DNA from: Pagrus major
Lineage: Eukaryota; Chordata; Actinopteri; Spariformes; Sparidae
DNA: 64,000 nucleotides
Direction: 5' to 3'
NCBI RefSeq assembly: GCF_040436345.1
Contig: NC_133219.1
Location: 19,364,458 to 19,428,457, forward strand
The position numbers and the translations under genes are program-made. This document shows, one piece after another, positions 14,059 to 39,626 of this stretch. The first letter of the stretch is position 1; each line of letters opens with the position of its first letter. A model generated the notes under the pieces. That model was not told the origin of the DNA, ran no database searches, and saw only the letters and a list, made by a program, of their open reading frames with translations.

Positions 14059-14903
14059 TCCTGTTATATCTGCTGGTTATAAAATCAGGTGGCTGCATTT
14101 ACTACCAGTAATGATTAACTAATAAAAGAAGTTGGTGACGTTGAAAGAAATTCTGACATTGTTGAACGGAGCCACGATGACAGCACACTGTGGGAGATCT
14201 CTACTGAACAATGCACATTTCTGGGACTGAAAGAGTCAAACTGAAGGGAAACAAAAGCTGGTGAGTCTTTGATTTACTAACAGTTTGGGACAAAAAAAGA
14301 AAAACATTTGAACTCTGAACATTTTATTTCCACTTTCTGTCACTTATTGACATGAATATTATTGTTAGCTGCACAGGTTGATCGACAGCACCACCTCTGA
14401 TCAGTTTCTGATGGATTTGTGCAGATTTCAAAATCTGACATCCTGCTGAGAATGATCAGTCCTCACTGGAGGACTAAAGAAAAAAACTCTTCCTGTTTTT
14501 GGTGTTTCATGAGAGTTTGTATTCTTTGTTTTGTGAAACAAAACACGAGATGTCATCATTGTTTCACATGTTACTTTTATTTTGTTGTAGGATAACAACT
14601 GCCAAAACAAGGAAATTATATTCTTCTGAGTCAAGAGAGAAATATTCAACTCTGAATGACATCCTGACAGCTCCATCTGCTGGTGACAACATGACACGAC
14701 AACATTTATTATGGTAATAATTGAACCCCGCGACAGAGGTGAAAGAAAATGAAACTAAGTTTTGACGTTGTTGAACAGAGCTGAGACGCCATTACAGGGT
14801 GTGAGATCTCTGCTGGAAAACACACGATTGGAGTATTTGAAGAAATCAAGAGAAGAGACAGTTACTTGGTGAGTCCTGCTGTGAAAAATAATTTCAATAA
14901 GAA

Positions 14904-16331
14904 ATGGCTGAGAAAATTGCTCTTGTTGAAAGTTTCCTGAGCTGCCATGTGTGTTCAGAGACTTTCAGAGATCCTGTGTCTCTGAGCTGCAACCACAACT
15001 TCTGTTCAAGCTGCCTGCAAAAATTCTGGGAACAAGCTGAAAACAAAAACTGTCCCATTTGTAAAAGAAAATCCTCCAAGGATAATCCAGATGTGAACTT
15101 TACACTGAAAGAACTGGCTGACTCCTTTGCTGAGAGACAGAAATCTGGATCATCTGAGACAGTAAAAGGAGAGAAGAAGGTGGAGGTGGTGTGTAGTAAA
15201 CATCAAGAAGAGACTAAATTGTTCTGTGAGGACGAGCAGAGAGCTGTGTGTCCTGTCTGTGAGTTTTCTCTCCACCAGACTCACAAGGTGGTTCCTGTAG
15301 AACAAGCAGTCAGTGAGCTGAAGGAGCAGCTGGAATCTGACTTAAAGTCTCTACAGGACAAGAGGAACAAATACAAACATGTGGAGAAAACATACAATGA
15401 AGTGATTCAACACTCCAAGAAGCAGCTGTTGTCCACAGAGAGGCAGATCAGAGCAGAGTTCAACAAGCTCCACCAGTTCCTGAAAGAGGAAGAGGAGTCC
15501 AGACTGGCAGCTCTGAGGAAGGAAGAGGAGCAGAAGGGGAAGACTATCAGCAGAGAGATGAAGAAGATGGAGGAGCAGATCTCCTCTCTGTCAGACAGTA
15601 TCTGTGCTGTTGAAGAAGAGCTGCAGAAACACAACGTGCCATTCCTCAGCAGTTATAAAGCCACTCAGACCAGAGCCAGAGTCCAGTGCTCACTGTCAGA
15701 TCCACAGCTGGTCTCAGGAGTGCTGATAGATGTGGCCAAACACCTGGGCAACCTGTCCTTCAGAGTCTGGGAGAAGATGAAGGACAAGGTCCACTTCAGT
15801 CCTGTCATTCTGGACCCAAACACTGCAAGTGGCAGTCTCTCTCTGTCTGATGATCTGACCAGTGTGAGACGTGGAGACACAAAGCAGCAGCTTCCTGACA
15901 ATCCAGAGAGAAACACTAAGTACGCCAATGTTCATGGCTCTGAGGGCTTGAGCTCAGGGAAACACAGCTGGGAGGTGGAGGTGGGAGATCATCCTGACTG
16001 GAATGTAGGTTTGGTTAAAGAGTCAGTTGACAGGAAGGGAGAGAGATTTGCTTCACCAAAATATGGAATCTGGTGTTTATTGCATGGTGATGGAAAATAC
16101 ATTGATGTTGTTGGTAAGACTGTCAGAGTGAAGAAGAGTCTCCAGAGGATCAGAGTCCAGCTGGACTATGACAGGGGGGAGGTGTCCTTCTACGACCCTG
16201 AAGACACGACTCACATCTGCACTCACAGAGACACTTTCACTGAGAAACTCTTCCCATATTTCAGTATTGGAAAGGCTGGTGATGCTAAAACTGCTGATAT
16301 CAAAATCTGTCAGACTGATATTTCTGTGTGA
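14904..16331 (+). CDS. TRIM E3 ubiquitin ligase-like, copy 2
   Basis: This is an intronless 475-residue paralogue of the gene at 1459-2883, with complete RING (C14, C17, C29, H31, C34, C37, C50, C53), complete B-box (C97, H100 and following ligands), coiled coil and PRY-SPRY. The putative role is ubiquitin ligation with SPRY target recognition, probably in innate immunity, as in related fish TRIMs. The coiled coil differs from copy 1 at only a handful of residues. The PRY-SPRY differs at many (for example SGSLSLSDD for NPWLHLSDD, and HGDGKYIDVVGKT for HDDGKYTNGVDET), clustered in loop segments. One extra residue lies just after the RING (KDNPDVNF for KDLLVNY). The intact zinc ligands suggest that this copy keeps the ancestral biochemistry. 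Confidence 0.94.
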   Translation: MAEKIALVESFLSCHVCSETFRDPVSLSCNHNFCSSCLQKFWEQAENKNCPICKRKSSKDNPDVNFTLKELADSFAERQKSGSSETVKGEKKVEVVCSKHQEETKLFCEDEQRAVCPVCEFSLHQTHKVVPVEQAVSELKEQLESDLKSLQDKRNKYKHVEKTYNEVIQHSKKQLLSTERQIRAEFNKLHQFLKEEEESRLAALRKEEEQKGKTISREMKKMEEQISSLSDSICAVEEELQKHNVPFLSSYKATQTRARVQCSLSDPQLVSGVLIDVAKHLGNLSFRVWEKMKDKVHFSPVILDPNTASGSLSLSDDLTSVRRGDTKQQLPDNPERNTKYANVHGSEGLSSGKHSWEVEVGDHPDWNVGLVKESVDRKGERFASPKYGIWCLLHGDGKYIDVVGKTVRVKKSLQRIRVQLDYDRGEVSFYDPEDTTHICTHRDTFTEKLFPYFSIGKAGDAKTADIKICQTDISV

Positions 16332-17756: not shown

Positions 17757-18589
17757 GTGTATGTGTGTCCTCAAAATAGAAACAGTCAGAAATCTAATAT
17801 ATTTTGAACTCTGAACATTTTATTTCCATTTTCTGCTGCACAGTGCTGCAAACAACTCTTATATTACTTGTAGTTGTTAATCTTATAATTATCCCAACTA
17901 CTACCTATGGAGATAAAGTCAAATCTGGTGATCCTTGATCAAAATGAATGAATGAAATAAATACTTATTATACTCGATCCTTGTGTTCTTTGTATCGTGA
18001 TTGTTATTTCTACATTTACTGTGATAAAATGTCTGAAAAAGACTCTAATCTCAAATAGTATGATCTTGTGTTTTGAAAATAGGATGACACCATCCAATGT
18101 TTTCTCATCAAGTTGTAAAAGTGTTAAAAAAAAAGACTGATACTGATACAATTTCCACAATTGTTATAATAATATGTAGATGCTGCTGCTGCTTTTGATG
18201 CTGTTCGTTTAAATTATGTGTAGTTTGTAACTGTAAGTTTGTTACTGTAAGTTAGTTTTGTATGTGGTTGTTCTTTTGTCCTGCTAGACATGAGCTGTTA
18301 ATTATATACTCATGTATGCTGTGATCATTTGGTGAATCAGAGTTCTTATATGAATCACCAGCAAGTTATGTCAGTCGTAAAGGAGCAAGAACTGTCCGTC
18401 TACAAAGTCAGAGAGAGTTTTTTTTTTTTTGCATGGACCCTTTACTAATACACTCAACTAGCTTTGATTGACTTTTGATCTATTCCCACAAAGAGGCAGT
18501 TCAACTTTATGATAAGCCTGTATATACATATTGTTTCATAAAAAAGTTATCTAGAAATTGGCTTTATTTATAACTTTTTGATGTATTAT

Positions 18590-18822
18590 TTATTATTATT
18601 TCAAGTATTCTTTTTAAAATGGCTTTAAATAGATAAGTTTGCACATTCTATCTCTCTATAACACCCAACAAACTGGATTTTATCACATCTTCAGAAGGTT
18701 TAATTCAATTAATTGTGTTGTACGTGATGCCGCTCTTATTCTGAAAAATCAAGCGGAAGTCTAATGTTGGCAGAGCCGTGAGGTAAACAAACTGTCGCCA
18801 CTACTTCCGGTGATGTGCACAG
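18590..18822 (+). promoter_or_regulatory. Promoter and candidate first non-coding exon of the chimeric gene
   Basis: Homologous to 11090-11341. ETS-type GCGGAAGT and ACTTCCGG sites flank a GAG/GTAAAC donor (about 18782), and a second possible donor CAG/GTATTG ends at 18822. There is no TATA box. It lies 2.2 kb upstream of the first coding exon at 21059, whose acceptor would join to either donor. Assigning this promoter to the chimeric gene is an inference from position and orientation. Confidence 0.55.
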
Positions 18823-19589
18823 GTATTGTACTGATGCTCAAACATTTAACTGCAAGTTAGACGTCTTTTCCACAGACAAGTCATACTTTAGTCTAGTCGC
18901 TTTTGAGACGTTTCCAGTTTCAGGAATACGTTTTTACAGCCAAGCATGCAAACAGCTAGCCAGTGTAGCTATGCTAACGTTAGCCATAGAACTGAAGCCA
19001 CACTGCTAAGCTAACTTAGCTACGTTTGTCGATGTGCACACAACTGCAGCGATTTAGCTAGCTATAGCTGCCTATTCCCTACAGTAAGTACAAATGTATG
19101 GTTATTTCAGGAATGGCAAGTTAATTACCTTTCGTAGCGAATCCTGCAAATACATTAATATCCATTGTACTGGTGTTGAGGCAGAAATTGACATCTTAAA
19201 CCTAGAAAAATAAAACTATCTGTGTGACTACGTGACACAAGAGGTGAGTGATAAAATGAGTATGTAATCATTTGGTTGACATGCCCTGTAATAGCAAAGC
19301 ACTTCAACCAGTCACACTTTTATTTCCTAAACAAACATGTTACAAGTCCCCCTACACTCTAATATATGTTACTTCACTGAGGTGTTTTGCCTTCACTGTG
19401 GAGAAAGATGTGCAGTCTGGCACTAGAAGGCTGCTGTCACACTAATATGTGTAAGGAGGACAGTTTAAATCTGTGTTTTGAAGCCAGTCATGGTCCAACA
19501 TGCCACTTATACTTAACTAAAGGACAAAGTCAAACGTTTTCATATAAGAACTGAAAAATATTTGCACATTTATAGATTGTAGATTTTAT

Positions 19590-19959
19590 AAAGAGGCAGA
19601 AAGACTAGTCATTTTGAGAATTATTAACAGAATAATTAAAATTTTTGTGACAAACTATTAGCGGACACAAATTTCATTACAAAGCCGGCTATTTGCCTTA
19701 TCTAGATACAGCATAAGGCTTCTCACAAATGGTACCAGAGCTGAAACAGTATTCTGATTATAATGTTTGTCAAGCAGAAATAACACACATGATCAGATAT
19801 GAGGATTTGCTGCTTTTCTTTGTCTTGATGGTAGTAAACTGAGCATTGTTTGTCCAAAAAAAGCCATTTTAAGACGTCACTCTTGCATTTTTCACTATTT
19901 TCTGTCAATTTAGACCAAACCATTTGTCAAATAATCAATAGAAATGACAGCAGCCCTAA
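19590..19959 (-). mobile_element. Miniature element of the AGGGCTGCAAC family, degraded
   Basis: It ends GACAGCAGCCCTAAAT, and inside it has the ATATGAGGATTTGCTGCTTT, TTTGTCCAA and AATCAATA landmarks that recur, in either orientation, at 20274-20595, 41790-42025, 54835-55012 and 58920-59147. No transposase. Confidence 0.6.
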
Positions 19960-20273
19960 ATATTACAGTAGCAAGTGACTGGAGGAATTAATTAATTAAA
20001 TGTATTTATTGCATAGTTATTGGTCTGTGATGTTACTGTAGTTCTGACAATGGTTAGTGAAAGGCAGTCATTATTTAACTGTGTTTTATATTGTTTTATT
20101 TGTAAAAATTGCTTTATAGCAATTGTCTTATAGTAAAGTAAATCTTTGGGTTTGTACTCTTTGTTGGACAAATACAACAGTCTGAGAGTTTGTATTATGG
20201 ATATTTTCTCTATATTCTGACAAATATGTTTAATCTACTAATTGAGAAAATAATTGGCAGATTGATAACTAAT

Positions 20274-20595
20274 AGGCCTGCAAACAATTATTATTTTCAT
20301 TATCAATTAATCTGACAATTCTTTTAATGATTAATCAATTAAACGTTCAGTTGATAAAATATCAAAGAAATGTAAAATAAATGCTAATCACAATTTCCAA
20401 GACCCCAAAGTAAAATCCTAAAATAATTTCTTTTGTCCAACAGTCCAAAACCCAAAGACTCTTTATTTACTAACATGAATGACAAATAAAAGCAACAAAT
20501 CCTCACATTTTAAAAGCAGAAAAACGACTAAAACTATTTATTATCAAAATAATTGCCAGATAATTTTCTTTCAATCAACTAGTTGTTGCGGCTCT
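20274..20595 (+). mobile_element. Miniature element of the AGGGCTGCAAC family
   Basis: It begins AGGCCTGCAAACAATTATTA and closes with the inverted end CAACTAGTTGTTGCGGCTCT. In between are TTGTCCAACAGTCCAAAACC and AGCAACAAATCCTCACATTT. This family is widespread in fish; the copy is non-coding. Confidence 0.75.
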
Positions 20596-21109
20596 TATCA
20601 TTAATATTTTGTAATTTATCTTGACTATCTATATTTATATTTAGCCCTCCTAGCCAATCTACCATGAAGTGTCCATCGCCTTTCTTATTTTCAGTTTATC
20701 TGCTGATAACATCCTTTCCAGCTGATTCCAATCAATTCTTTCTCTCTCATGTTTTCACTGAGTTGAATATCATAAACCTCATGCTCTCACTTTTCTTTTA
20801 CTCAAGGTTGAAGGAAAACCACAATAAATTGAGATGGATGCTTTAAAATGTAGGCCTATAATTGCCAGTCGTGACAATGTTAGCTGGTAATGTCATCACA
20901 ATCAAATTGTGGTCCTGGAGTCACCTTTTCTTGTGGGAACTACCATAGAAGCAGATTTACTTAAAGCAGGTGTTCATATGTCTGTCTGTCCCTATTTATT
21001 AGAAATGCAAACACATTGTGACCCTGATGATCAATTCTGCATGTTTTTGCTCTACTAGGCCTCCTAAATGAAACAGACTCCTAGCGACACGCTCTGATGA
21101 TTATGTAGA

Positions 21110-24100
21110 ATGATGGACAACCTGGCAGCAAATAAGAGCAACATACCCTGTCAGTCATGGGCGAGCCAGAATGGCTGGTCCACAGTTTCAGCTCAAGGAT
21201 CCCTCTTCAGTCCACTGTCCAGCTCTCAGCATCTCAGCCTGGACTTGTCCTCTGGCCAAAGACCCTCCTGCGACCACCTGCAGGCATCCCTCCACAGCTG
21301 TATGAGTGACATCAGCACCTTACCGTCCACTCACCGCACTGCCCTGTACGAAACATCTCACAGTAGCAGCAATTCCTCATCCATCGCGCTGTTTGCCAAC
21401 TCTGCTGTCCCGAGTTCCTCCCACAGTATTTCCTTTGCTCAGCAAAACCCTCACATGTCATCAATGCTGCTAACTACAAACCAAGGAAAAAATGTACCCC
21501 CACCATCTCTTCCCCAAACAAACCAAGCTCCACAGCCCTGTAGGCCCCAACAGCTACCACTTCTCTCAACCCAAGGCCATTACAAAGCGTCATTTCAACC
21601 ACCATTCGCCAATCAGGGTTTACCAAACGGTCTTCAAGATCTGCCCAATAGCCTGCCGTCATGTGGACAACAACATGTAAGTACATCTCAAGCTACTTCT
21701 GATGGAGCTAATGTGGAGTTTGTGTCTGGAAACACTCACAGTTGTGCTTCATCCTCTTCTCAGGAGCAGCGTCAGTGGATACCTTCATCACACTGCAGGG
21801 GTAAGTGCTGCTTGTAATACCTTTGTGGTTTGTGGCATGTTCATCTTGTACTGGAGGATGAAAAGCCTCATTAGTGTGGTAAAACATGTTGGGTGTGATG
21901 GATCGATCTAAACCAGGGTGGCCCAAAGTTTTTCTTGAGATTTTGACTAATAATTAGGGATTCTACAAATGTAAAGAACATTTTTTACCCCACAAAAAAT
22001 AAAAAGGCATACAAGGGGATTTATATTATTTGTTTTGGTTTTTCTTTCCTGCAAAAACCGTCTGGTTGTAGTTGTAGTCGTAGTTAGTTGAATCAAGACC
22101 TCTCTAAAAGAGTTTGAACAAAAACTGAACGTTATGATTTTCATGAAAGGAGAATTTATGTCAGGGCTGTTGTGTCATGTATAGGTTTCAGGTAGTGGCT
22201 CCTGTGTTTACATTCATTAATCAGAAGATGTTGTGACAGGTAACAAGTAGGATCATTACAAAAATACCATATCATTAAAAAAAACAATAAAACATCTCAC
22301 CCTACTGATTAGTCACTTATTCAGACAAGCACTGCAGTTCAGATTGCAGAAGTTTTGGATGTTGCCTACAATTTCCTTTCACATTGTTTAACTTAATCGT
22401 CTTTTCCTCAGGAGCTGCTAACAAGTCTGTCCCTGATGCAGCAGCTCATCCTAACAAAGAGCCATCGCAGGGAGGGAACATTTGTCCACCGGTAGGAAAT
22501 TAACAGCACGTTGAGACTAGTATCTACCAAATGATTGTTACCTGTTATCTACCATCATGTGGACATTACCGGGAGAGTTTTATAGGAGATCATTACCTTA
22601 AGATTACACCTTCTAATTTTTAATTTGTTTTGCGCTTATCTGCTTCCAGGCCAACAATGACACACGGCGTACAGTACTTTTACATCAGCGTGCACAACTA
22701 CTTGAACAACTGGCAGAGTTGAATAAACACGTAAGTGTGTGTGTTAATTAAAAAGTCAGTATTATTTTAGATAGTTCCTACATAGTGCTACTGTATGAGT
22801 GTATATATATAACTTAAAATGATAAATTGCTCAAATCCCAGTTATGGATAAGATTAGAGATGAGTCCACACAGTTTCTCTGTTGACATCTCTTCTATCTG
22901 CCTGTTAAGCTGGACTCAATACCTCCAGATGACAGCAGTGATGGGCAGACACCACACACAGCTGTTCAGGTAGGTTAAGATTTTTCAGATGCTGCAGTTC
23001 GATTTGCAATCCAAAAAAAATTCAAATCTAGAATATGTGTAAAAATATTATACTGTTGTTGTCGTCACTTTTAGTCTCTTCCACCAACGGATGACTTGTC
23101 CCAATATGAACAGAATGAGACCAGTGATGCACAGCAGGTTCAGTCAAAGGTAGCTCCTCAATAATTTATTTTATAAACATGAATGACGGCTCCTTTCATA
23201 GATCCATTCATGCTATCATATAAATGATAGTCAAGGTACCTGACTGTTACATTTTTAGAGTTCCTTGTCACCTTTTCACTGTTCTGTTTTTCAGTCACAG
23301 TCACAACTTTCAGCGGATTGTTCATCACCTGTATCCTACGATGAACAGAATGAAACCTTTGATACACCAGAGGATCCAATGTCAGAGGCAGAATCAGTGG
23401 TACTTACCTCTATTTTTTCTGTTTGTTTCTTTAATCCCTAACAAATGGCACATTTACATGTTCTTAGTATTAGTGTCAAGCAGATGATCATTTCGGAGTG
23501 TGTGATGTATCAGAGCATAACCCATAGTCATTTTTGGGTATGTTCTCTTGGCTATGTTGCATTTATTTGTTACGCCCTGTAAACATTAGTGGCCGATCAC
23601 ACCAAGCTACGCTGCTCGAAATGCATTGCCAGTAAAACGATTCTTTTCCTATGGTTCAGGTGTCTCTCATGCACTCCTCTCTAGTGCCATTTTAGTAGTG
23701 GTTTTTACACATGCATAAAATAATATTCTTAACTTTTCAGCAAGAGGCATGGAGGCCTGAATACAAACTTAACATACATTAATTAATGAAATACTTAAGT
23801 AGAATTAAGATGAATTATACATCTTTTAAAAACAAATCTCTTAAATTAAATGTGGTGAGTTAGCATAGAGATATTTGTGTCTTTGTAAAAAAAAAATTAA
23901 ATAGAACACTTCATTTTTTTTTTCTTTCAGAAAAAAGAAAACACCTCAGCTGAGGATGGCAGTGATCTTGATTACATTCCTGAAAGTAATGGGGACTTCT
24001 CTGATTTCCAATCTGACAGTAGCTCTTCAGATGAATCCAGTCACAGCAAGCCCGCCACCCCCACAGATGAAAGACCTTCTCTCCCAGAGGAAAGAAGAGA

Positions 24101-27100
24101 CAAATCAGGAGGTTCTTTGTTCAAGGCCAAAAGTGTCAGTCTTCCAAAACAGATATGTGCAACTAATCTGAAGAAGTCCTCTGAAACTGTAGTGTTGCCC
24201 AGTATGAATACTAAAGAACAGCGTCATTATGACAGGAGGAATTATTGTGTATTCTGCTCTAAGCCATTATCCAAAATGGCACGACATTTAGTGCAGGCCC
24301 ACAGCGACAAAAGAGAGGTTGCAGCTGCTTTTCAGTATCCCATAAAATCCAGAGAAAGACAAAAGATATGGAACAGACTAATAAATCAAGGAAACTTTGC
24401 TCATAATAAAAAGGTCTTGAGAAGTGGGAAGGGCCAGCTTGCCGTTAGAAAAAGACCAAATTACGCTAGACAAGCCAGAGACTTTCTTCATTGCCTTCAC
24501 TGTCGAGGCCTTTATATGAAGAATGCCTTGTTCCGACACGTGAAGTTGTGCCCAGAGAGAGGGAAGAATGGAAATGAATCAAGGGTCGGAAGAAATCGTA
24601 TTGCAGTACGCTGTGTGCTTGAAGCTTCAGACGACCTTGGCATAACCGATGGTTTTAAAAGCATTCTCACCAAGATGACTTACAATGATGTGACACAAAC
24701 TATCATAGATGACAAGGTTCTCTTGCAGTTTGGTGAGCTGTTGTTCAATCATTACGGATCTGATGTGAAGAAGCATGAATATATAAGACAAAACCTTCGT
24801 CAGATAGCAAGACTTGTACTCGAAGCTAAAAAAATAACCCCTCTTAAGAAACTGGAGGACTTCTTTCTCCCTTCAAGCTTCCCACATGTGGTGTCTGCAG
24901 TGAATGTGCTGGCAGGCTACGATCCAGAAAACAAAAGGTACCGTATTCCCTCCCTTGCCATCAAGCTTGGCTACCACCTACAGAAGACCTGTGGTATTGT
25001 CAAGGATAATGCAGTTAAGAGTGGTAATGAAACTTTGGCAGAATCTGCACAGAGCTTTCTCTCAGTTTACCAGAAAAAATGGAACAAGCTCGTTTCTTCA
25101 GGTGCATTGTCATCCCTGAGAGAAACTAAATCAAACACAGACAAGAAGGTGCCTTTTGCTCAAGATGTAAAGCGCCTGAGTTTCCACATGGAGAATGTTC
25201 ATCTTCTTGCTGAGAAAAAACTCAGAGACAATCCCTCCACAGAAAACTACACTGCTCTGGCCAAGGTAATACTCGCTCGAACAATAATTTTCAACAGGAG
25301 AAGAGCCACAGATGTATCGTCGCTGCAACTAAAGGATTTCATGTCATGGAAGCAGTCAGAGTTGCATGCTGGCATGGAGTTCTCGGTGTCAGACTTGGAA
25401 AGAACCTTGTGTGGGTTCTTCCCTAGAGTTGACATACGGGGAAACTGTGGAAGGATGTTTCCTGTGTTACTAAAACCAGCATTTGTGTCTGCTATGGAGC
25501 TTTTAGTAGAAGTTCGCGAGACATGTGGAGTCCCCAGTGAGAATCCCTTCCTGTTCGGCCGACCACAGGCAATGTGTTACTACAATGGATCGGATTGCAT
25601 CCAAAAATATGTCAAAGAATGTGGAGTTGAAGACACTGAAGCGCTGACAGCTCCAAAGATCAGGAAGCATTACGCAACAATGGTACAGCTGATAACCCTG
25701 GATGAAAATGAGGCCGACCAAATTTTAGGCCCTAATAATCAAGTCAGAGCGCTGCGACAGAACAGCAGCATGCAGCTGGATGACATCGAAATAGACTTTG
25801 ATGGTAAGAATATTTTATTTGTTTTAGATGATTCTGATGTGAATTAAGTTTTACATAGTTTGAGATTAAATGCAGGATTTATAAAGGTTGTCAGTCTGTT
25901 GTTAAACCAACAAACGGTGGCACATGATAACCAGAAAATGAACAAAGATATTGGAACCCAAAACTTGTCTTAGTGCCATATTGTGGCTCACTCATTCTCT
26001 GGCTTTTTCTGCAATAATATAAGCGTGTGTTTGTGTAAATATGTGTATAGAGTATGTAGATGGGATATGTAAAGGAAGACGTTCTCTTTTTGTTCAATGC
26101 AGAGGGATTACAGCCTGCAAGAGGAGAACGAGGTGGATCATGGAATCGCAATCAGCGTCCCAGCGCACGCCATGTCAATTCAGGCAAAAAATGTAGAAAT
26201 GGTGATTATTAACAGTCATACTAACTTTTTTTTTTTTTTTAAGTATGGGCCACTTTGGCTGAAATTGTTTTAATCAGAAATCTGCATATGGGAATAATTA
26301 AAACTTTTCATGAATATTTTGATTTAAAAAAATGTAATTTGAATACCAAACATTGCATTCATGCTGATCAAAGGAGAGTTGGTGTCAAAGCATGACATCA
26401 AATCAATATGGATGGTGAAGATGGACAGGATTTAGGGTTTGGACAGTGCGAAGAGTGGGGCAGTAATGACAATAAGATCTGTCTTGAACAAACATTTGTG
26501 CTGGGCTCAGACGACACAAATTTTTGGAACCTAATCAATTAACCACATAAGGAGAAACTTACAGATGTGAGATGCAAGAACTGGAGGCAAGATTTTACTC
26601 TCCGTTTAAAATCATGTCAGCAGTAGTTTGCTAGCTAACGTCAGCCTCAAGGGCTAGGGCGCAACACCATCAGCTGCTTTGGGATGTCATGTTGGAAATT
26701 ATCAGGGCAGCCTGATGAGTCTGCCAGCAGTCAGTGAGGTTTAATACTGGATCTGTAAACCCTTCACACTACCAGAGAACATCGGTGCTTACCAAAGCCC
26801 GGGACCAGATTTCTCCTCCAATTGTCGGGAGATGTGAATCAAGGATAATTAGGACCAAAACTCTATTTGAACCTTAAGATGAAGACATTTCACTGTGTTA
26901 TCTTAAAGAATCTTTTTAGGGTTTGTTTTTTTAGTAATGGCACAAGTTCACTCTTTTCTCTTTTACCCTACAGGTGCCCAAATGAGCAGCAAACATAAAT
27001 GGCAGGAAGCAGAGGTTCTTGCTGTTGAGAGACACATGATGCGTTTCATTAAAGGTCACAAAATCCCTCAGAAAGACGACTGCATTCAGTGTCTTGAGGC

Positions 27101-29179
27101 TGAGCCAGATGCACTGAGGACCCGTTCATGGAAAGGTGTGAAGGACTACGTCAGAAACAGGATAACTTCCCTAAAACATGATAGAAAATGTGGTGCGAAA
27201 GACACTGTCGCACAGACATCAAAAAAGACCAGGAAGCATGAAACAACGACACCACAGCTGATGAACCTGGATGGAAGTGAGGCGGGCCAAACTGTAGGTG
27301 CTGATAATCAAGTCCAACAACTGCGACAGAACAACTGCGTGCAGCAGGATAACGTTGAAATGGACTGTAATGGTAACAATTTGTCTTTATATTTTCTTTA
27401 TATATTCCCCTTGAGCAACTCCTTTTATACAAAATTAACTTTAAATCATACATCATAGTTTTGAGATTAGCATTGCAAAAAACTTCTTGAATGGACGTTA
27501 AAACATGACCTCTATCGAATAACTTACATTGGTCAATTTAATCTGGTGTCATAAGGCAAATAAGTGGAAATCAGTGCTGTGATCTATTAGAAGCATATTT
27601 TGTTCTAGTTGTTGAATTTCTAAATTCATAAATCTAACGCTCTAACAAAAAAGAAAAAAATCCAGTGTCTGTGGCTCTCAGAGGCCTTGAATAAACACAT
27701 TCAATCATTTCATTAGGCCTGAATAAAATGATTGGATGACTTAAATGCCTGTCTACATACATATCTTACTACCTGAGTGCGCTCATCGTGCATGACCGGC
27801 GTCTTCCACAATGCTTGATGGATATTTTGCCAAAGCTATTAGTGAGCTAGTAGCACAAAAATGGCAGAAAACATGCAGCCTGTAATTCCCGATACTAACA
27901 TGCTCACTTGACAGCTGTAAGTAATAACAAGCCATTTCCGTTTTTTACTTTCATTGTGTGTGTGTGTTTTCTTAGATGTGAATGAGATATAAGGTAGTTT
28001 CATATGGTTAGTGATGACAACAATGCGCTGCTCTTGGAGGGGTGGCTTTGGAGGGAGGCCTGACTGGAGGTGGTGGGATTTTTTTTTTTCATTTAGATGT
28101 GTTCAAAATCTAGCTTGCTCCTGCTCGTTTGTCTAAGATCAACCCAAACAGTAATATAATTTAATGACTCAAGATCTTGAGGGCAAACCAAATGTTGTAA
28201 CGCAGACCTTTCTGGGTGAAAAGAACAGAGGGTGACCAGTATCCTGAGAGGCCACTGATTAAAATGTGTGTCGTTCATGTATATGGCAGAACGGTGACCA
28301 CAAAATGGCTTTTGAACAAGAATTGAACCTTGTCTGGGTGCTGCACTGTGGCTCACTTATTTCTCTGGGTTTTATGCAGTTATATAAGTGGTTGTGTGTG
28401 AATGTGTGGATACATTATGTAAATAGGAAATGTGAAAGAAGACTTTCTCCTTTTGTCTTCAATGCAGAGAGATTTACACCCGCAAGAGGACGACAAGCTG
28501 CATCATGGAATCACAGTCAGCATGCGGGTGCACACTATGGCCAAGCAGAGATTTATCACGACCAAGCACATGGAGCAACAACACGGGCCACAATGACTGC
28601 ACCTCAAAAATCTGTCAACTCAGGCAAAAAAGGTAGAAATGGTGATCATTAACAGTCATTCCATACATTTCCTTTATTTTTTTTTTAAGTTAAACAAACT
28701 TATGTTTGATAAACAATAACAGTAGTCGTTTGAAAGATTTAAATGTCTAGTGTGTTTTATAGTAGAACAAAAATTAGAAGGCTGAGTAAAGAAATAGAGC
28801 ACTGTGCAATTAAAGGTTCTTGTTGATTGTTTTTAATATTTTTTTATTATTTGAGATGGCACAAATTCACTCTTTTCCCTTTTACCCTACAGGTGCCCAA
28901 AATAGCGGTGTACATAAATGGCAAGAAGCAGAGGTTCTTGCTGTTGAAAGACACATGATGCGCTTTATTAAAGGACACAAGGTCCCTCAGAAAGACGACT
29001 GCATTCAGTGTCTTGAGGCTGAGCCAGAAGCACTGGGGACCCGTTCATGGAAAGGTGTAAAGGACTACGTCAGAAACAGGATAACTTCCCTAAAAAGACA
29101 AAAAGGAAGTTCCAAAGCTACGTCCACAAACAGTAACTGGTCTGGCCAAGTGGAATCACAATCTTATTGGACCAATTGA
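21110..29179 (+). CDS. Chimeric gene: Sec24-like N-terminus + zinc fingers + degenerate tyrosine recombinase + duplicated KW domain
   Basis: Eleven coding exons join with consistent phase into 1301 codons: 21110-21800, 22412-22491, 22650-22730, 22910-22969, 23075-23149, 23295-23399, 23931-25803, 26103-26192, 26974-27372, 28468-28632, 28893-29179. Exons 1-2 are paralogous to the first coding exons of the sec24-like gene (31247-32313). Exons 3-6 and the start of exon 7 are short, acidic and Ser-rich. Exon 7 holds a C2H2 finger (YCVFC...H...H, about residue 470), a C2HC finger (CLHC...H...C) and a recombinase-like core with NRRRATDVSSLQLKDF and IRKHYATM, but it lacks the GH...Y segment that carries the catalytic tyrosine in relatives. 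Exons 9 and 11 each encode KWQEAEVLAVERHMMRFIKG followed by RSWKGVKDYVRNRITSLK. Exon 7-type proteins abound in fish and are probably transposon-derived. DNA binding in the nucleus is inferred; the function is unknown. The Sec24 part lacks every coat domain. No stops or frame breaks. Confidence 0.78.
25608..27372 (+). repeat. Intragenic cassette, unit 1 (recombinase tail, linker exon, KW exon) and junction
   Basis: The recombinase tail at 25608-25803 (KECGVEDTEALTAPKIRKHY through LRQNSSMQLDDIEIDFDG) is repeated at about 27178-27372, fused in frame to the end of the first KW exon (RKCGAKDTVAQTSKKTRKH through LRQNNCVQQDNVEMDCNG). The fusion point lies about at SLK of the KW exon. This is what unequal crossing-over between exon 7 and a KW exon would leave. 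Confidence 0.85.
27178..29110 (+). repeat. Intragenic cassette, unit 2
   Basis: It has the same order as unit 1: recombinase tail (27178-27372), linker exon (28468-28632, matching 26103-26192 in PARG...SWN and VNSGKK) and KW exon (28893-29179, matching 26974-27170). Intronic sequence before the linker exon is also shared (26000-26102 with 28360-28467), as is the sequence just before both KW exons. The intron before the KW exon is about 780 bases in unit 1 and about 260 in unit 2. Confidence 0.85.
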
Positions 29180-29709: not shown

Positions 29710-29715
29710 AATAAA
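29710..29715 (+). promoter_or_regulatory. Polyadenylation signal of the chimeric gene
   Basis: AATAAA about 530 bases after the stop codon at 29179, the first such hexamer in a suitable place. This makes a 3' UTR of roughly 0.55 kb. Confidence 0.55.
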
Positions 29716-30194: not shown

Positions 30195-30400
30195 CAGACT
30201 TTGTGTAAAATCTTAATCTGATAAGTAATTATAGCTGCAATATTTTCTTCTGAAATATTAAAATTGTACTGATAGTAACGCAGACAGAAACTGAACTGTA
30301 ATTTATTAAAGAAACTCAGTATAATTTAGGAAGTACTAGATTAAAGCTTTTTACTTCGTATTAAATTGTATTTTTTTTTCTTTAACCGTGGCTGGCTTGT

Positions 30401-30701
30401 TTTTATTTTGAAAGGGCAGGCGGAAATGCGTTGTCGTGAATCTTGCTAGCATGATGCTAACACTGCAGCAAAAGGCTCAGGTTTATGAACGTAGCCGGTT
30501 GTGTGGTGGCTAAAATCTTAAAGTAACTCATGATACAGTTTGTTATCATGGAAGTTAACGCCACTGTAACGTAAAGACGAGCTAAACAACACGTTTCATC
30601 CTGTCCGGAGTGTTTCTCTTCCGTCGCAGAGGGGGAAATGAAGACGTTAACGTCAGGGACGTTGACAGACAGGTGCCGCACGCAAAGCTCCGTGTCCAAA
30701 G
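30401..30701 (+). promoter_or_regulatory. Promoter and candidate first non-coding exon of the sec24-like gene
   Basis: A CpG-containing region with TTATTTTGAAA followed by GCGGAAATG, the same arrangement as at the other promoters in the window. A donor-like AAAG/GTATCG ends at about 30701 and another (GACAG/GTGCCG) lies near 30671. The first coding exon acceptor is at 31196. Confidence 0.5.
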
Positions 30702-30983
30702 GTATCGACTCATCTTATATTACTTAACATAAGACTGTTTCCTTCAGATGTTGGTGTTTTTTTTATCTCAACCTGTCTATTTATGAGGAGCCGCTGGTTG
30801 CCCAGTGGTCATGCCGATGCGTTCACATGATGCCATGATACCTCTGTGTTATTGAACTAGCGTTAGCTGACGACAGAATAGCATCGAATAAGCTACTTTA
30901 CCATAATGATTTTTCGACAGTGTGCTATCATAAGCAAGAGTTTAGATCATGTTTTTATTTCTGTTAACCAGGTGGTATGACAG

Positions 30984-31246: not shown

Positions 31247-34200
31247 ATGGACGTCCCCACAGCCAATCAGAGCCAGACACCCTGCCAGCCGTGGGCGGGC
31301 CAGAACGGCTGGTCCCCTGCTTCACCTCAAGCAGCCCCCTTCAACCCTCTGCTGGGTTTTAAGCATCTCAGCCTGGGCTCACCTTCTGACCAGAGAGCCT
31401 GCTATGATCACCTGAAGGCGTCCAACCAGGGCTGCCAGAGCGACATCAGCACCTTTTCATCCAGCAACAACACTCATCACAGTACGCTTTACGCTAATAA
31501 TGCTGATCAGAGTGAGCAGCGAGTCAATCCTGATGCTCGTGTGTCATCCACGGTTCCAGCTGCAAGCCAAGGAAGAAACATACCTCCATGTTCTCTCCCT
31601 CTTCTGAACGAAGGGACGCAGCCATGCAAGCCACATCAAATGCCATTTTACTCCCCTTACAGCCCTTACCAAGCAATATCTCCCCCTTTGCAGTCTCCAT
31701 ACGCACACCAGGGTTTATTGAATGGACCTCAGTCACCACATCAAAAACATCTGCCCATCAGCTCTCCATCATTTGGACAATGTGTAAACCAGAGTCCACA
31801 GTGCACACCTCAGCCTGCATTTGAGAGGGCAAATGTGGAGTCCTCTGTTGGATACACCTACAGTCATGTCACGCCTACCTCTCCTATCCAACAGCAGCCT
31901 CAGTGGACACTTCCACAACACTCTAAAGGTAGGTTCATTTATGATATGTACATGGTAAGCTCAGATTTATTTTACAAACCCTCCCACGTGAGCTGACCAG
32001 CAGGTTGAGAAGCATTGGTCAGTGAAATTCTGAAATTAATAACTACAGCTGCAGCCCAATGGCATTGTAGAAAAAACTGATATTGTTTAATCACGTAAAA
32101 GCAGTCCAATAGAGCATCACAGTTGTGCCCCATCATTCAGGGAACTCGTCACTTCAGGGAAGTGTTGGAGTCAGAGTTCAGATTATGATGATCTTCTCTG
32201 GATCTTTCCTCCGTCGTCTTCTTGCATTGTGTAACTCCCCTGTATTTTCCTCAGGACCCATAAATGAGTTTGTTCCCAGCACGGGTGCACAGGACAAGAA
32301 CATCACACAACAGGTGGGGAGAATACAGCAACAGCAACACAACTCTCACACAAATGATTATTTCCCTAATCAATACATATCTTCTAAGGTGTTGTTTTGT
32401 TCAACCAACAGTCCAAAACCACAAATACAGATGCATTACCACATTGCCATGTATCCTGCAAACAGCTGTGATTAGAAAAGAAAAATAGTATTTAAAACTA
32501 TGTTGCATCTTTCTTTAACTGACTTCCAAAACACTCGCCAGATCAACATCTTCACACACAAGGTGGTCGACAGGGGCCATCAATCAACGTTTTGGTTTTT
32601 CGTCCCTCAGAATTACAGGATGTCTTTCTTGACTCAGTATTGCTGCACTCATATTGAATACAGTCTAGAAAAACAAAATCTAACTAGAAATAGCATCAAT
32701 GTGTTGAAATAATGTCAAAGTTTCATTGTTTTTCTCGACAGTCTCCTAACTCTGAGTCTCGTTATGGCCTGGACCCAGAGCTCCTTCCCAGTGCTGTAAG
32801 TTCATCTTTTCCTGAATGACTCCCGCAGCTCCTCACCAATGATGTTTATTGCCTGTTACAGTACATCTTTAAGAAAAGCAGCAAAATGGCTGATTGAATG
32901 AATGTATTTATTTTATTTATTTTGTAATAGTTCATGCCTCTTTTGAGGGAAGAGTTATCATACTTCTGCTGATTGATATGGTTTCACTTGTGTCTCTCTC
33001 TGTACGTCTCAGGTGAAGGTGATTGCAGAGGACAGGGCAGAGTGGGAGGGCAAAGTCTTCATCTCAGAGCCTTTTTCCCGTCTTCCTCCTCTGGCGACTA
33101 CTTCTTGTACCGTAGAGGACAGGGGTAAACGCACACAACACTGTCTGCAACTGTGTCACAGAGATGTACTCCATTAAAATGTATTTTAGATATCCTACTT
33201 AATGCTGCATCAACATGACTTACATCATATGGTATGGTTCAGCTCTGAATTACAAATATGATATTTTGATGTGCTTGTCAGTTTGTTTTCCTTCAGCCCT
33301 TCTTGTCACCGTGTTTTTAGACAGCCGTTATGTCATTCCTGACCCGTCTCTGTCGAACTCTAGGTAATGCGAGTCCTTCGGCCATCCGCTCCATTTCGTA
33401 CTGCGTGCCCTGTGAAGGTCAGACTGCCCTACTCAGCCGTCTGCCGCTGGGAGCTGTGGTCACCCCCCTGGTAAAACAAAATGCTAGAGAGGTCAGTTTA
33501 TAGCTACTCTGTTTATTCTGTAATATATGTGTTGGAATAACTTCAATAACAAAATACAAACTTAGAATTGGAGAAATATTTAGGGCAGTTTTTGCGTGGA
33601 ACTGAAGCCATTGTGTTACGCTACAAATAAACCCATGCATGGGCCGTTTAGAGATCCTGAGATATACACATGTGAATTTAAGGTGTATGTGTGTGCGTTG
33701 CCTCTAGAAGCCCCTGCCTGTGTGCAAAGAGGCAGAGTGTGTTACGGGATGTGGCTGGTGCGGAGCCTCCATGTGCCCAGCGATGGGCTGGCAGGACTGT
33801 GGACAGAGGTTTTACTGCCCCTTCTGTGGTAAACTCAGTGAAGGTAAGATTTCACATTGAGCATCAAAGCCTCCAGGCAGCGCTCATACACGATCTGTAG
33901 TTGAGGTTCAGTGACAGAAAAGATGGCTGTTTTTTTTCACACATTGTAGCCACAAGTTTGGTTTGTCCAATACCTACTCTACTTACAGTAATAGTCAAAA
34001 TCAAACTTTATTTATATAGCACATTTTATACGGCATTTTATATGGCATGCGGCCATACTTTGTCTCTCCTGTCCTGTGTATTAGTGCCGTGGCAACACTA
34101 CCAGCCCACCAAAGGGGTGGAGGGGGTTCGGGTGGATAAAGACAAGAGGCCAGAGCTCAATATGGGCTCTTACGAGATACTCAATTCTCAGAAGGTTAGT

Positions 34201-37200
34201 TCCATCTTCTACCATTGTTAGTTTTGTTTGTTTATTAGTTGTCATTGCTTGTTCTTACTGGCGCCCTTTAAAGACCCTTTAACAGTCTCAGAATAACGTG
34301 GGTAAAGATGCTTTGTGTGTGTTTTAAACTGTTGTTCTTTATCTCAGGGTGAACCTGCTGCACTGCTTCTAGCCATAGATGTTTCTCCCTCAGCACTAAG
34401 AGGAGGACATCTGGAGTTTGCAACACAACAAATACTCGCCCTGCTCACTTCTTTGAAGAGGTAAAACACGCCCACATCGCACTATATATGCACACACACA
34501 CTCTCTTTCACAGCCTGCTCAGTAGTAACCCTATGCAGGTTTGGAAACACTGGGAATATAGGGACGATGGTCTTTTATCTAGTTTGCAGCAGGCAATCTT
34601 TAACGTTTCATTTAATTCGTGTAGGGAGGATGGTGATGCCTTGTCGGACGTCCGTGTTGGTTTAATGACTTATGACAGCAGGATCCACCTGTACGACCTC
34701 AGCCCTGCCCTGTCTCGCCCACACATGCTGGTCATCACTGAGACAGAAGAACTGCAGCTTCCTGTGAGGGAGGGGCTTCTGGTGTCCCTGAAAGACTGTA
34801 TCGACAGTATCGAAAGGTTTCAACTGACCATTTTGTCAGATGTTTTTTCATGTCGAACTGAATTATGCACGAGTGTGCTCCTAGTTTCATACAGCACTCT
34901 TGTTCATGTTCTAGAGCAAGCCAGCCGAAATCTGTTGCAAGCTAGTGATGTTCTTTCTGCAAATAGAAGTGATAATAATAGACTTGAAAATATTTTCATG
35001 ACTTTGCCTTTCTTTTTTTGGATCAAGTGATAATTAACTGTCTGTTGTCTGTTTGTGTAGTGTGTTGCAGCTTATTCCTCAGTATTCTCCAGAGTGTGAT
35101 GACTCCAGTGGAGTTACCGTGGAGCTGTCTATGAAAGCCGGGCTAGCTGTACTGAAGGTCAGTCATCACTGCACAGACTTTAATGGTTTTTTTTTTTCAT
35201 TGTTAAAATTTCTCCTGGATTTATTGTGGCTGCACAAGGAGGGATAATATCCTGATGTTAGTTTACCACTTTAACTGCTAACTTTAACCCTCTTTTACAG
35301 TCAGTGACTTGATATGATTTAAGTACTTTGTTCTGTTTGTTTCCAGGCCCTGAGTTGTCCTGGGAAGCTGCTGATCTTCCATACTGCCCCTCTGATAGAG
35401 ATAGGACAAACCAACTCATCCTCAGGGTTCTTTGGCTCCAACAAACCAAAGGTATGAAACACACACACGCACACGCGCCCTGTGCAGTTGGGGCGGCTAA
35501 AGCAACATTGTGTGCAAGTACAAAGACAGTTTCATTAATTCCCTTCTCTTTAATTTTCCCCAGTCAATCTTTCAGCCATCAGAGCTCACCATCTCATTGG
35601 CCAAGGAGTGCGTCAGTCATGGCTGCGGCGTTCACCTGTTTCTCCTCTCCCAGCAAGACGTGGGTGGAGCTTGGCCGGGGCACATTCCACATCTAACAGG
35701 TGGACGTCTGCACACCTACAGCCACCTCCAGGTATCAGTTGTTCCTCCCATTTTAGCACTGGAAATGACGTTAAATGAACTACATAAAGAAGAAATATCA
35801 TTTTAATAGTTGATTAGCTGCTCTACTTTTACCACTAGTAGCAGTTGTGCCAAATTCAACAAAAAAAAGTAAAAATACATAACTTACAGTTGGTTAGAGC
35901 TTCACAAATGCAAAGGGTTGCCTACTACTACTTTATCAGTGATTTAAAACGAATAATTTATGAAATTGTTGGTTTCTTTTTAACTGTTTTTTGATAAACT
36001 GATGACTGGAACATGCTACTTATTCAGGTCCAGTTACAAACTAATTTTTTTTTTAATTCCCACCACAGGGTGAATTGGACAAAGAGCGTTTCAGCACTGA
36101 CCTAAAGAAGACTGTAGAAACGGACTCAGGCTACAAGGCTGAGCTCAGGATTTTTGTCAGCAAAGGTGAGACCTTTTTATTTTGTGTGATTATTCAGTTA
36201 ACATCCTTTTAAAAATACCTGTGATCTCTCTCCAGATATGCGTGTGTCTGGGTGTTATGGACTTTTTATCCCTGGGCCCAGTCCTGGCCACGTCACCATG
36301 GCAACCCTTGATCACTTTACAACACTGGCTGTGGAGCTCGCGCACACCAGAGCTCTGGATGAGACGAGAGCTGTCGCCATTCAGGTAAGGTTTATGTTTG
36401 TGACCATCGATTTGGATCAGAAATAGAAAATCACAGAGTTGTCAATTGTGTTGCCTTTATGTCATCCAAATCCTTCTGCTGGTTGAGAAGTAGTTAATTG
36501 AATTATTTTTAATAATGCTTTTTAGTAAAATTTTTGTAAATAATTTTATAAAGACTTTTTACTTTATCAGTCATTCATAAAACAGTAACTCAATGCGGAC
36601 TGCGTTCTGATGATTGAAGAGATACTTTATGATTTGCAGTCCCTTCAACTGTCTTTTTTTAACCATAATCCTCCTCTCTCCGCTCCTGTTTATCAGGCTG
36701 TATTGTCCTACAGCACCCAGACTGGAGACAGGAGGACCAGGGTTCACACTCTGACCCTGCGATGCTCACGTCACCTGCAGGACGCCTTCCGGCAGTACCA
36801 GGCCCAGACACTACTCACCTTCTACTGCAAAAAGAGTGAGGATCTTATACTGTGGATTAGTGCATTGTTTAGACGTTATACTGTAGATAAAATGCTTAGC
36901 AACATCAGCATATGTTCTGTTGTACATTGCTAATTAATATGACTTAAAGATTCCCTCATAGCTAAGATAGTTATTCTCTCTGTTCTTTTAAATTAAGACC
37001 ACAGATTTTTTCCATGAACATAGAAAGTTTTGAAAGCCACTAGACAACATTGTTTTGTGTTTTGGTGTTCCTGTCTAGTTTACTGTGCAGTGTTGGAGCG
37101 CCCTCTACAGGAGCTGAGGGAGGAACTGCAGACGGAGGCAACAGAAGCATTGGCGTCCTATCGGAAACACTGCTGCTCTGCTTCAGTGTCTGCTGGACAG

Positions 37201-39626
37201 GTGAGGTTATGAAACATAAAAAGAAACTACATAGCTATAAATTAATCCAGAAGGTTTGTTTTTACTTTTGAAAATGTCTAAAAAGTGTAAATTCTGTTTC
37301 AGTTATTGTAGAGAAAAATCAGAATGACTTTTTTATTAACATTATTTTCTTTTTTGCTTTACAAGCCCACCCTGATGCATCATCTTTCTCTTGTTATATC
37401 CCTCTTCATTCACCTGCTACATAAGTTAATAACATCTCTTTTGACCATATGTACTTTGTTCTCTCTGTGTATGTGCCTGTAGCTGGTCCTCCCTCAGTAC
37501 CTGCGAGCTCTTCCTGTTTACATCAACAGTCTGAGGAAGAGCGAGGTGCTGCTGCCGGGCCTGCGGAGCTCCGTCCACCAGCGGCTGCAGCAGCGCTGCC
37601 AGGTGCTCAGCATGGACACCCGCAGCACCTCCACACAATTCTACCCTCTGCTGCTGTCTCTGGTCAGTACCATCAACACGTGGATGTTTGTCCTGATCAG
37701 ATTTATGCTACGAAAAGTCAGTGAGGCTGGTGTATCAGGCTAAAATTACGCGTGACTAACCACATTACTGACTCTTACTTAATCGTTGACAGAGCAGTTA
37801 TTTAAGCCTCTCCTGCACCGCATTAGTGTTGACCTGTGACCTCTATTTCCACTGACCGAATTCTAGATGGAGAGTTATTTCTCTCTCAAGACAGTAATGC
37901 TACCAGTAAGAGATGGCTGTCACTTCATTGACAGAACATTTTTTTCCAGTTCCTTTGTTTTTGCCTTTGGCGTGTATCGGTAAGTTCTCACTCACTTGTC
38001 GCCTGCAGCCGCTGTCAGCCGACAGCTCCGACTCTCCACACCCAGAGGAGGCCCTGCGCTGCTGTGCTGCCAGCCTTGAGCCGAGAGGTCTGTACTTGGT
38101 TCATGCACCCCTCACCCTGCTGCTCTGGGTGGGCACCCAAGTCCCAGCATGCACCCTGGTCGAGCTCTTCAACACCAGCTGCTTCTCCTCCCTGCCCTCT
38201 GGAGAGGTAAAGGATTAGACGGAGGTGGACACACACACAGCACGCAAGAGCCAATACAGCGGCGCTACAGTGGATATATCCGACAAATTAAATAAAGGCT
38301 GAAAATAAAATGTTCTAAAACTGCTGTAATTGTTTGGGTTTGTTTGGCCATTTTTTAACAAGCATTTTAATTCACCAAAAATTAAAAAAAATTGGCTACA
38401 TCAGCTTTCCTGTAAAGAATTCAACCATTCCAAACTGTGAAGTAATGTTATGAGGAGGTTATTTAGAAGAGGAAAAACAGGGACAACTAGTTTAAAAACG
38501 AGACTGATGAAGCTTCTCACCACTAAGCTGTGCCATGTTTGTGACACTGATTTAACCCAAAGGGCTCTAAAGACACTCTGTTTTCTGTCCATTTCTAATG
38601 TTTCTTTTTTAATGTGAATGTGTTATTTCAGACCAAGCTGCCAGTTCTTGAAAACCATCTGTCCATCACTGTTCGATCCCTCATCGACACACTGAACTCC
38701 CAAGCACCCTGTGCCCGCAAGGTGAGCCTATGCTGACCGCCCTGCTTCTGCTGCAGGCGAGGATTTTATATTCCAACAATGGCGACTCAATGAGTCAGCC
38801 AACATCTGTGACCTTAAATCACACAGTTGCTGTTTCAATATGTGAGGTCATCTCCTCTGTTGCGGCCTCACTCGTTTTCTTGTACAATTATATTGTTCTG
38901 CAGTAGGTCCAGTGGATTTGGTGGATTATCAGCCAAATTATGTTTAAAATCCATTCTTTTTTAAAATCCATTCTTTTTTTTCAAAAGTTCACTACATTAG
39001 TGATGTTTTCTAAATCCATAAGAAATTGTGTTAAAGCAACATTAAGTAAAATAAGATCATCTAAATCATGTTGATGGTACAGTGTCTTGTATTTGGGTGA
39101 ATGGTCTCTGTCTCAGCCACTCCGCCCCCCCATCACTTGTTTCTGCACTATGTAACTTCAGTGAGAGGGTAGGATCACAGCGTTACATACTGTACATGTG
39201 TACTTCATCAAGTTTTCAACACATAACATTGTAATGACGTAATGAGTTTTGTTTGTAGTTAGCACCTACATTATATCTGACAAATAACAGACCTGGGATT
39301 TGTATTTACGACAGTGGCGTTGCACTCAGAAACTGTGGGGGGTGCCAAATTGAACAAAATGCCAATTTCTACATAATGTTGCTTTAAATAATTGGGATTT
39401 CAGTGTTGGCCAAAATGATTATTATTATGATTTCAGCCCTTCTTGTAGCCACTGATGAATGAAGACTGTGTTTTTTCTGTCTCAGCTGTTGGTGGTGAAG
39501 CAGGGCGACTCCTGTGAGGAGGCTCTGCAGCGCCACCTGGTGGAGGACAAGAGTCCTAACGGAGGAGCGTCCTACGCAGACTTCCTGTACCATCTCCACG
39601 TCAACTCTGTCCGGCTTCTGCAGTGA
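31247..39626 (+). CDS. sec24c/d-like: Sec24-like COPII coat protein (SEC24C/D clade)
   Basis: Twenty-one coding exons give 1036 codons without frame breaks: 31247-31928, 32255-32313, 32412-32450, 32742-32795, 33013-33124, 33364-33491, 33708-33843, 34085-34194, 34348-34460, 34625-34816, 35061-35157, 35347-35451, 35564-35731, 36069-36165, 36236-36384, 36697-36835, 37079-37200, 37483-37662, 38009-38206, 38632-38721, 39486-39626. Sec24 pairs with Sec23 in the inner COPII coat and selects ER export cargo. Visible are a Gln/Pro/Ser-rich N-terminus (about 230 residues), the zinc finger (CGWC...YCPFC), the trunk (RPELNMGSYEIL, AALLLAIDVSPSAL), LLIFHTAPLIE, LTGGRLHTYSH, the helical domain and the gelsolin-like end with HLVEDKSPNGGASYADFLYH. 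The C-terminus matches SEC24C/D best, though much of the protein is divergent. The 39-base exon at 32412 has a weak donor and is the least certain. The 5' coding exons are paralogous to those at 21110-22491. Confidence 0.93.
33985..34045 (+). repeat. Fragment of a dispersed repeat in a sec24 intron
   Basis: AAACTTTATTTATATAGCAC is the start of a very common fish repeat. Only a short piece is present, just upstream of the exon at 34085. Confidence 0.5.
39031..39387. mobile_element. TTAA-bounded miniature element in the last sec24 intron
   Basis: The left end TTAAAGCAACATTAAGTA and the right end TACATAATGTTGCTTTAA are inverted repeats with one mismatch. It is 357 bp long, non-coding, and ends 99 bases before the last coding exon. 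Confidence 0.8.

Follow-up and report, generated by a model that had tools for sequence, protein, structure and literature searches.

The window analysed here is a 64,000-nucleotide stretch of the Pagrus major genome (NCBI RefSeq assembly GCF_040436345.1, contig NC_133219.1, positions 19,364,458 to 19,428,457), which sits on contig 5 of the source genome (786 Mb in 25 contigs), the genome used for all genome searches. Positions 21110-29179 of its forward strand hold a predicted gene that is very probably a chimera, with Sec24-type exons and a block derived from a mobile element in one gene. The gene model is stop-free, with GT-AG introns and agreeing phases, and comprises 3906 nucleotides (nt), or 1301 codons and a stop. 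The original prediction, which ran exon 1 with consistent phases into nine more exons and a 1301-codon frame, was right, and the exons number 11. Phases and splice sites predict that these exons are joined, and the gene would be transcribed as a single mRNA.

21110..21800, forward strand: exon 1, duplicated Sec24-type N-terminus
22412..22491, forward strand: exon 2, the first 59 nt matching exon 2 of the Sec24-like gene in length and phase, followed by 21 nt in frame
22492..22649, forward strand: intron 2 (158 nt), expected site of the fusion point
22650..22730, forward strand: exon 3, element-derived coil exon
22910..22969, forward strand: exon 4, phase 0, no relative in the genome search
23075..23149, forward strand: exon 5, phase 0, no relative in the genome search
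23295..23399, forward strand: exon 6, phase 0, no relative in the genome search
23931..25803, forward strand: exon 7, with an acidic region, two zinc-finger-like motifs, a core and a catalytic-like domain of a recombinase-type family
26103..26192, forward strand: exon 8a of the gene model, phase 1-1
26974..27372, forward strand: exon 9a, phase 1-1, KW domain to which a repeat of the exon 7 tail is fused (from about 27207)
28468..28632, forward strand: exon 8b, phase 1-1, duplicate of exon 8a
28893..29179, forward strand: exon 9b, second KW domain, with the stop at 29179
29710..29715, forward strand: AATAAA, possible polyadenylation signal 3' of the gene

Exons 5 and 6 (23075-23399) have the motif YEQNET/YDEQNET in common, which suggests an exon duplication.

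The presumed donor of exons 1 and 2 lies downstream in the same window, and a short flank is common to the two genes.

31247..39626, forward strand: Sec24-like gene, 20 coding exons, 1023 amino acids
21012..21046, forward strand: flank common to the chimera and the Sec24-like gene, upstream of exon 1, 35 nt long and 83% identical

The Sec24-like protein has Pfam matches to the Sec23/Sec24 trunk, helical, and beta-sandwich domains above the cut-off, with the zinc-finger match just under it (22.6 against 25 bits), and its closest solved structures are Sec24C and Sec24D. Homology between exon 1 of the chimera and exon 1 of this gene (31247-31928) spans the start codon to the donor: the proteins are 40% identical by BLASTP (97/243 columns, E 3e-48), identity over 213 codons in the codon comparison is 46%, and the DNA of the first part is 73% identical (179/246 nt, E 9e-47). 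Each of the six gaps between the two DNA sequences has a length divisible by three. The segments PCQ-WA-QNGWS, F-PL, HLSL, DHL-AS, and SDIST occur in the same order in both copies and the phase 1 donor is common to both, as first noticed; the similar non-coding sequence also reported, TTCTGCATGTTT, falls within the 35-nt block upstream of each exon 1.

A third copy of exon 1 was not found in the genome: with the chimera as query all other matches have E 0.70 or worse, and exon 1 of the Sec24-like gene recovers the same two places and one other match at E 2.96. It matches none of the other loci in the genome with a Sec23_trunk domain, so that the ancestral owner of this N-terminus is unproven and the Sec24-like gene could in principle have acquired exons 1 and 2 from the chimera. 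This reverse direction is the least credible of the readings weighed here, given that a CpG-rich start belongs to the Sec24-like gene (see below) and that the N-terminus occurs at no other locus of the genome, copies of the mobile element included. Among the Sec23_trunk loci, contig 20:20249084-20250595 has four Sec23_trunk pieces in the same 535-amino-acid open frame and is possibly an intronless Sec23/Sec24 copy.

The original prediction described homology with the Sec24-like gene for exon 1; this homology stands, and exon 2 is homologous as well. The first 59 nt of exon 2 align ungapped with the 59 nt of Sec24-like exon 2, with 28/59 positions identical, a value reached by 5 of 20000 shuffles. 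The chimera has GG at the original donor position and uses a GT that lies 21 nt later, with phase 0 kept; exon 2 thus gains 21 nt in frame. No copy of Sec24-like exon 3 or any later exon was found after exon 2 of the chimera, upstream of the Sec24-like gene. The folded domains of Sec24 (Sec23/24 trunk, zinc finger) were not found by Pfam in exons 1, 7, 9a, and 9b, and exon 1 has no Pfam domain above the cut-off; its composition suggests a disordered N-terminus. Nothing links the product of the chimera to vesicle coats.

From its seventh nucleotide through its donor, exon 3 aligns without gaps to an exon of group A of the mobile elements described below, where the counterpart is a 34-amino-acid coil exon present at six group A places. 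None of 3000 DNA shuffles and 1 of 5000 protein shuffles scored as well. The match was missed by a search with a limit of 0.01 and surfaced only in a local low-threshold search (0.008) before it was tested by shuffling; it was chosen among many short matches, so that the shuffle counts somewhat overstate its strength, and the common donor position is the stronger point. Since exon 2 is Sec24-derived and exon 3 is element-derived, the fusion point most likely lies within intron 2. The claim that a partial 5' duplication of a Sec24-type gene was joined to a block from a mobile element is thereby upheld, except that the junction shifts to intron 2 and exon 3 is already on the element side.

The element-derived block belongs to a mobile family with many copies, near-identical ones among them on several chromosomes. 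Genome searches with exon 7 and with the KW exon return at least 69 and at least 41 match rows, respectively, two of which in each case belong to the chimera (a row is a piece, not a locus). Outside repeat arrays, identity among the group A copies of contigs 8, 14, and 10 is 98.8-100%; additional copies, on contigs 5, 9, and 21, stand at about 95-98%. Group B is represented on contigs 14, 10, and 18 by copies that for the most part exceed 99% and drop to about 97.5% in one stretch. Five group A copies have a common 3' end beside a GT repeat and differing flanking DNA, and therefore behave as mobile elements. Group A spans about 20 kb, its 5' end being unsettled at a GATA repeat, and group B about 17 kb with both ends unsettled. 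Among the genome matches, the closest full-length relative of the chimera is 44% identical; with no closer full-length relative, the chimera behaves as a single-copy gene.

Both groups have SET-domain exons upstream of the recombinase exon. Among 33 family loci, 14 have a SET match within 15 kb upstream on the same strand, for a chance expectation of about 0.0008 per locus; 19 do not, the chimera among them, and at the chimera no SET match occurs within 60 kb upstream. The 33 loci, the window included, are 36 of the 69 rows after merging, with the longer rows picked by eye and at least one long row (contig 21:4741761-4742387) left out, and 6 of the 14 SET-bearing loci are near-identical group A or B copies and so are not independent. 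Because diverged SET exons may escape detection, SET is not claimed to be ancestral in all members of the family.

Contig 8:24100086-24120245 and its copies on contigs 14, 10, 9, 21, and 5 form an interspersed element of about 20 kb, about 95-100% identical, that contains SET exons, a coil exon, a zinc-finger-recombinase exon, a KW exon, and internal tandem repeat arrays. The group B copies at contig 10:16991191-17007810 and contig 18:34444759-34462561 share DNA past the N stretch of the contig 14 copy. Recombinase fragments at contig 10:15715728, contig 18:12651385, and contig 6:39615116 each have a SET match about 31 kb upstream, and the near-equal distance suggests a longer duplicated block.

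Exon 7 of the chimera was compared with three elements, one each from group A, group B, and contig 12. All three elements have Arg, Lys, Arg, His, and Tyr in order and with identical spacing, which we take to be the residues of a recombinase site. The His-to-Tyr spacing of nine is that of lambda integrase, and a His/Trp-to-Tyr spacing of nine was found in 4 of 6 phage recombinases and not in the remaining 2. Pfam, PHROGs, NCBIfam, and the sequences of PDB gave no match to a recombinase family, and a DUF3504-type Pfam match was not found in exon 7 of the window or in two elements. The zinc fingers of the original prediction are present, and its recombinase-like core is to be understood as an assignment by motifs.

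24219..24560 (approximate ends), forward strand: zinc-finger region, retaining 10/10 Cys/His columns invariant in the three elements
25443..25445, forward strand: Lys lost to Asn, RGKRGR or MGKRGR in the three elements against RGNCGR in the chimera
25720..25756, forward strand: eroded box III, element segment LGHDIRVHR-x-x-YR lost in frame

The chimera has lost three of the site residues: the Lys, the His (LGH to LGP), and the Tyr, the last through the in-frame loss of the box III segment. By alignment both Arg residues are retained. Of the columns invariant in the three elements, the chimera keeps 31/38 in the zinc fingers, 31/42 in the core, 42/66 in the catalytic part, and 5/28 in box III. 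Compared with the other three members, the losses are skewed to the catalytic part (Fisher p 0.008 without box III, 2e-6 with it), these p values being rough, as columns of related proteins are not independent.

Two KW domains, 91% identical over 67 codons, are present as predicted; the first KW exon (26974-27372) continues past its KW domain into another copy of the exon 7 tail, likewise without box III. This missing box III indicates that the catalytic loss probably preceded the tandem duplication of the 3' exons. The duplicated block with KW is 88% alike and the remaining duplicated blocks 74-86%, and since exons 8a, 9a, and 8b are all phase 1-1, such a duplication can keep the frame.

For the exon 1 pair, nonsynonymous divergence (dN) is 0.378 and synonymous divergence (dS) 1.044, a ratio of 0.362 (95% interval 0.231-0.533) that makes constraint on both exon 1 branches likely. 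For the KW pair dN is 0.052 and dS 0.229, a ratio of 0.225 (95% interval 0.056-0.720). With dS near 1 the duplication looks old, and therefore the chimera, if it really is a gene, is expected in many related fish. Neutral decay was simulated at levels from 0.1 to 0.5 substitutions per site, with 2000 runs per level. At 0.25 and at 0.5, none of the 2000 runs left exon 1 free of both stops and frameshifts; at 0.1, 0.05% did. Stops alone were absent from exon 1 in 0.4% of runs at 0.25 and 8.65% at 0.1. Simulated exon 7 was stop-free in 0/2000 runs at 0.1 and above.

These values bear on three further readings. Exons 1 and 2 could be a decaying 5' fragment of the Sec24-like gene beside which the element block starts independently further downstream. 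Two such neighbours would fit with the absence of a CpG-rich stretch upstream and with the exon 1 ratio, which reaches 0.5 in 5.1% of bootstraps, so that neutrality on the branch of the chimera is possible. That reading is nevertheless improbable, as exon 1 is stop-free with all its gaps in frame at a dS of about 1.0, a state that no simulated run kept at 0.25 or 0.5, and as the exon 2 donor has shifted by exactly 21 nt with its phase kept and all junction phases agree. Exons 1 and 2 could instead serve the Sec24-like gene as an alternative 5' end, spliced some 10 kb on into its exon 3, with the element block carried along inside the intron. The end of exon 2 and the start of Sec24-like exon 3 (32742) are both in phase 0, and this arrangement would account for the constraint on exon 1; it is very unlikely, in that it leaves unexplained both the stop-free, phase-consistent exons 3-9b and a dN below dS in the KW duplicates. 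Equally implausible is an ordinary, degenerating element copy whose frame is open by chance. The family is multi-copy, and many exon 7 match rows are fragments or contain stops, as this reading would have it; against it, the simulated exon 7 lost its open frame in every run even at 0.1, the losses fall on the catalytic site with the finger Cys/His columns kept, and the chimera is free of stops despite divergence to 44% identity.

The chimera remains the reading preferred here, and one part of the original prediction is not supported, namely that the duplication supplied a promoter.

30400..30799, forward strand: CpG-rich start region of the Sec24-like gene, CpG observed/expected 1.0-1.1

This CpG value is the highest among the 300-nt stretches of the window with G+C above 0.45. 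Upstream of the chimera no CpG-rich stretch was found at 18000-21199 (observed/expected 0.15-0.66), and upstream of 21012 no similarity to the Sec24-like gene was found at E 0.001. A duplicated promoter could have been present and have decayed past recognition at the present divergence. Elsewhere in the window, 14901-16331 is a TRIM-like single-exon frame with RING, B-box, and PRY-SPRY matches.

Several points weigh against a maintained chimeric gene. The CpG scan of 18000-21199 leaves the chimera with no promoter found; its splicing is read from phases and splice sites, and the donor of exon 8a (AAT|GTAGAA) looks weak; no source was found for exons 4-6, with exons 3-6 as one genome query giving self-matches only; the recombinase assignment is by motif; and its status as a maintained gene is judged from one genome. 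To the bootstrap result for exon 1 are added a KW ratio that reaches 0.5 in 8.75% of bootstraps and a ratio of 0.94 over 30 codons for exons 8a and 8b, with no sign of constraint. The open frame of exon 7 may also partly reflect selection during its phase as an element.

Taken as a whole, duplication from a Sec24 gene, fusion to an element, catalytic loss, and a resulting DNA-binding fusion make up the best explanation, which we regard as probable. A partial tandem duplication would have placed coding exons 1 and 2 of a divergent Sec24C/D-class gene once more about 10 kb upstream, beside one of the large mobile elements that encode a recombinase. The duplicated exon 2 would then have been spliced into the coil exon of the element, replacing the 5' exons of the element, which code for SET in many family members. 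Lys, His, and Tyr would have gone from the recombinase site of the fused gene, its zinc fingers and core would have stayed, and its KW exons would have been duplicated later. The sequence itself shows the homologies, junction interval, intact frame, and residue losses, and catalytic loss is presumed to have followed fusion.

Kept zinc fingers and core, lost catalytic residues, a single copy, and a host N-terminus together suggest a DNA-binding protein without recombinase activity. The product would be a nuclear protein that carries out no recombination and likely binds chromosomal sites related to the parent elements, where it might act as a regulator or competitor of them; for a DNA-binding role the chances seem about even. 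The chimera looks like a domesticated host-transposase fusion; on this view it is no active jumping gene but a gene newly gained by the host. A broader view is speculative and rather unlikely: fish may harbour a family of giant tyrosine-recombinase-type transposons with swappable N-terminal host modules (often SET, here Sec24) on a zinc-finger-recombinase-KW body, the chimera being a catalytically dead member, captured long ago, that now binds the sites of its mobile relatives and so restrains or redirects them.

A single genome, in which near-identical copies of the wider element family persist, shows where the donor gene, partial duplication, junction intron, shifted donor, element exons, and catalytic loss each lie, and the steps of such a capture are therefore testable. 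The locus also points to large SET-recombinase-KW elements, the recombinase part of which matched none of the family libraries used. A search of the literature, by titles and the openings of abstracts, gave no description of a Sec24-recombinase fusion or of a fish element with SET plus recombinase; this kind of host-transposase fusion is already known, and the Sec24 donor and the element family were not met in that search.

Crypton-derived DUF3504 genes, among them KCTD1, KIAA1958, ZMYM2/3/4, QRICH1, and WOC, encode proteins that have lost the tyrosine and for which DNA or protein binding is proposed as the remaining role (PMC3212892). As in those genes, a tyrosine-recombinase-type domain lies in a longer host protein with the catalytic tyrosine gone. 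In contrast to them, the chimera has no Pfam DUF3504 match, and it keeps, by alignment, the second Arg, which that source gives as lost in the vertebrate DUF3504 proteins. The parent elements, at about 17-20 kb, carry a KW exon at the C-terminal end and in many cases a SET exon, whereas animal Cryptons are described there as having no C-terminal domain. Known Crypton domestications are, in that account, all very old, and functions are hence hard to propose for them (PMC3212892).

Compared with the Sec24C/D coat proteins of COPII, the donor has the Sec24 domains and the chimera has the N-terminal exons only. Fusions of host and transposase sequences are established in SETMAR, CSB-PGBD3, and KRABINER, as summarized in PMC12062965 (citing Cosby et al. 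2021). As in those cases, host exons would be spliced to a transposon-derived, putatively DNA-binding protein, here with both parts in one reading frame of the genomic sequence. SETMAR, CSB-PGBD3, and KRABINER use DDE-type transposases, as do, to our knowledge, most described host-transposase fusions. Unlike these three, the chimera would unite a tyrosine-recombinase-type protein with the N-terminus of a COPII coat gene obtained by tandem duplication.

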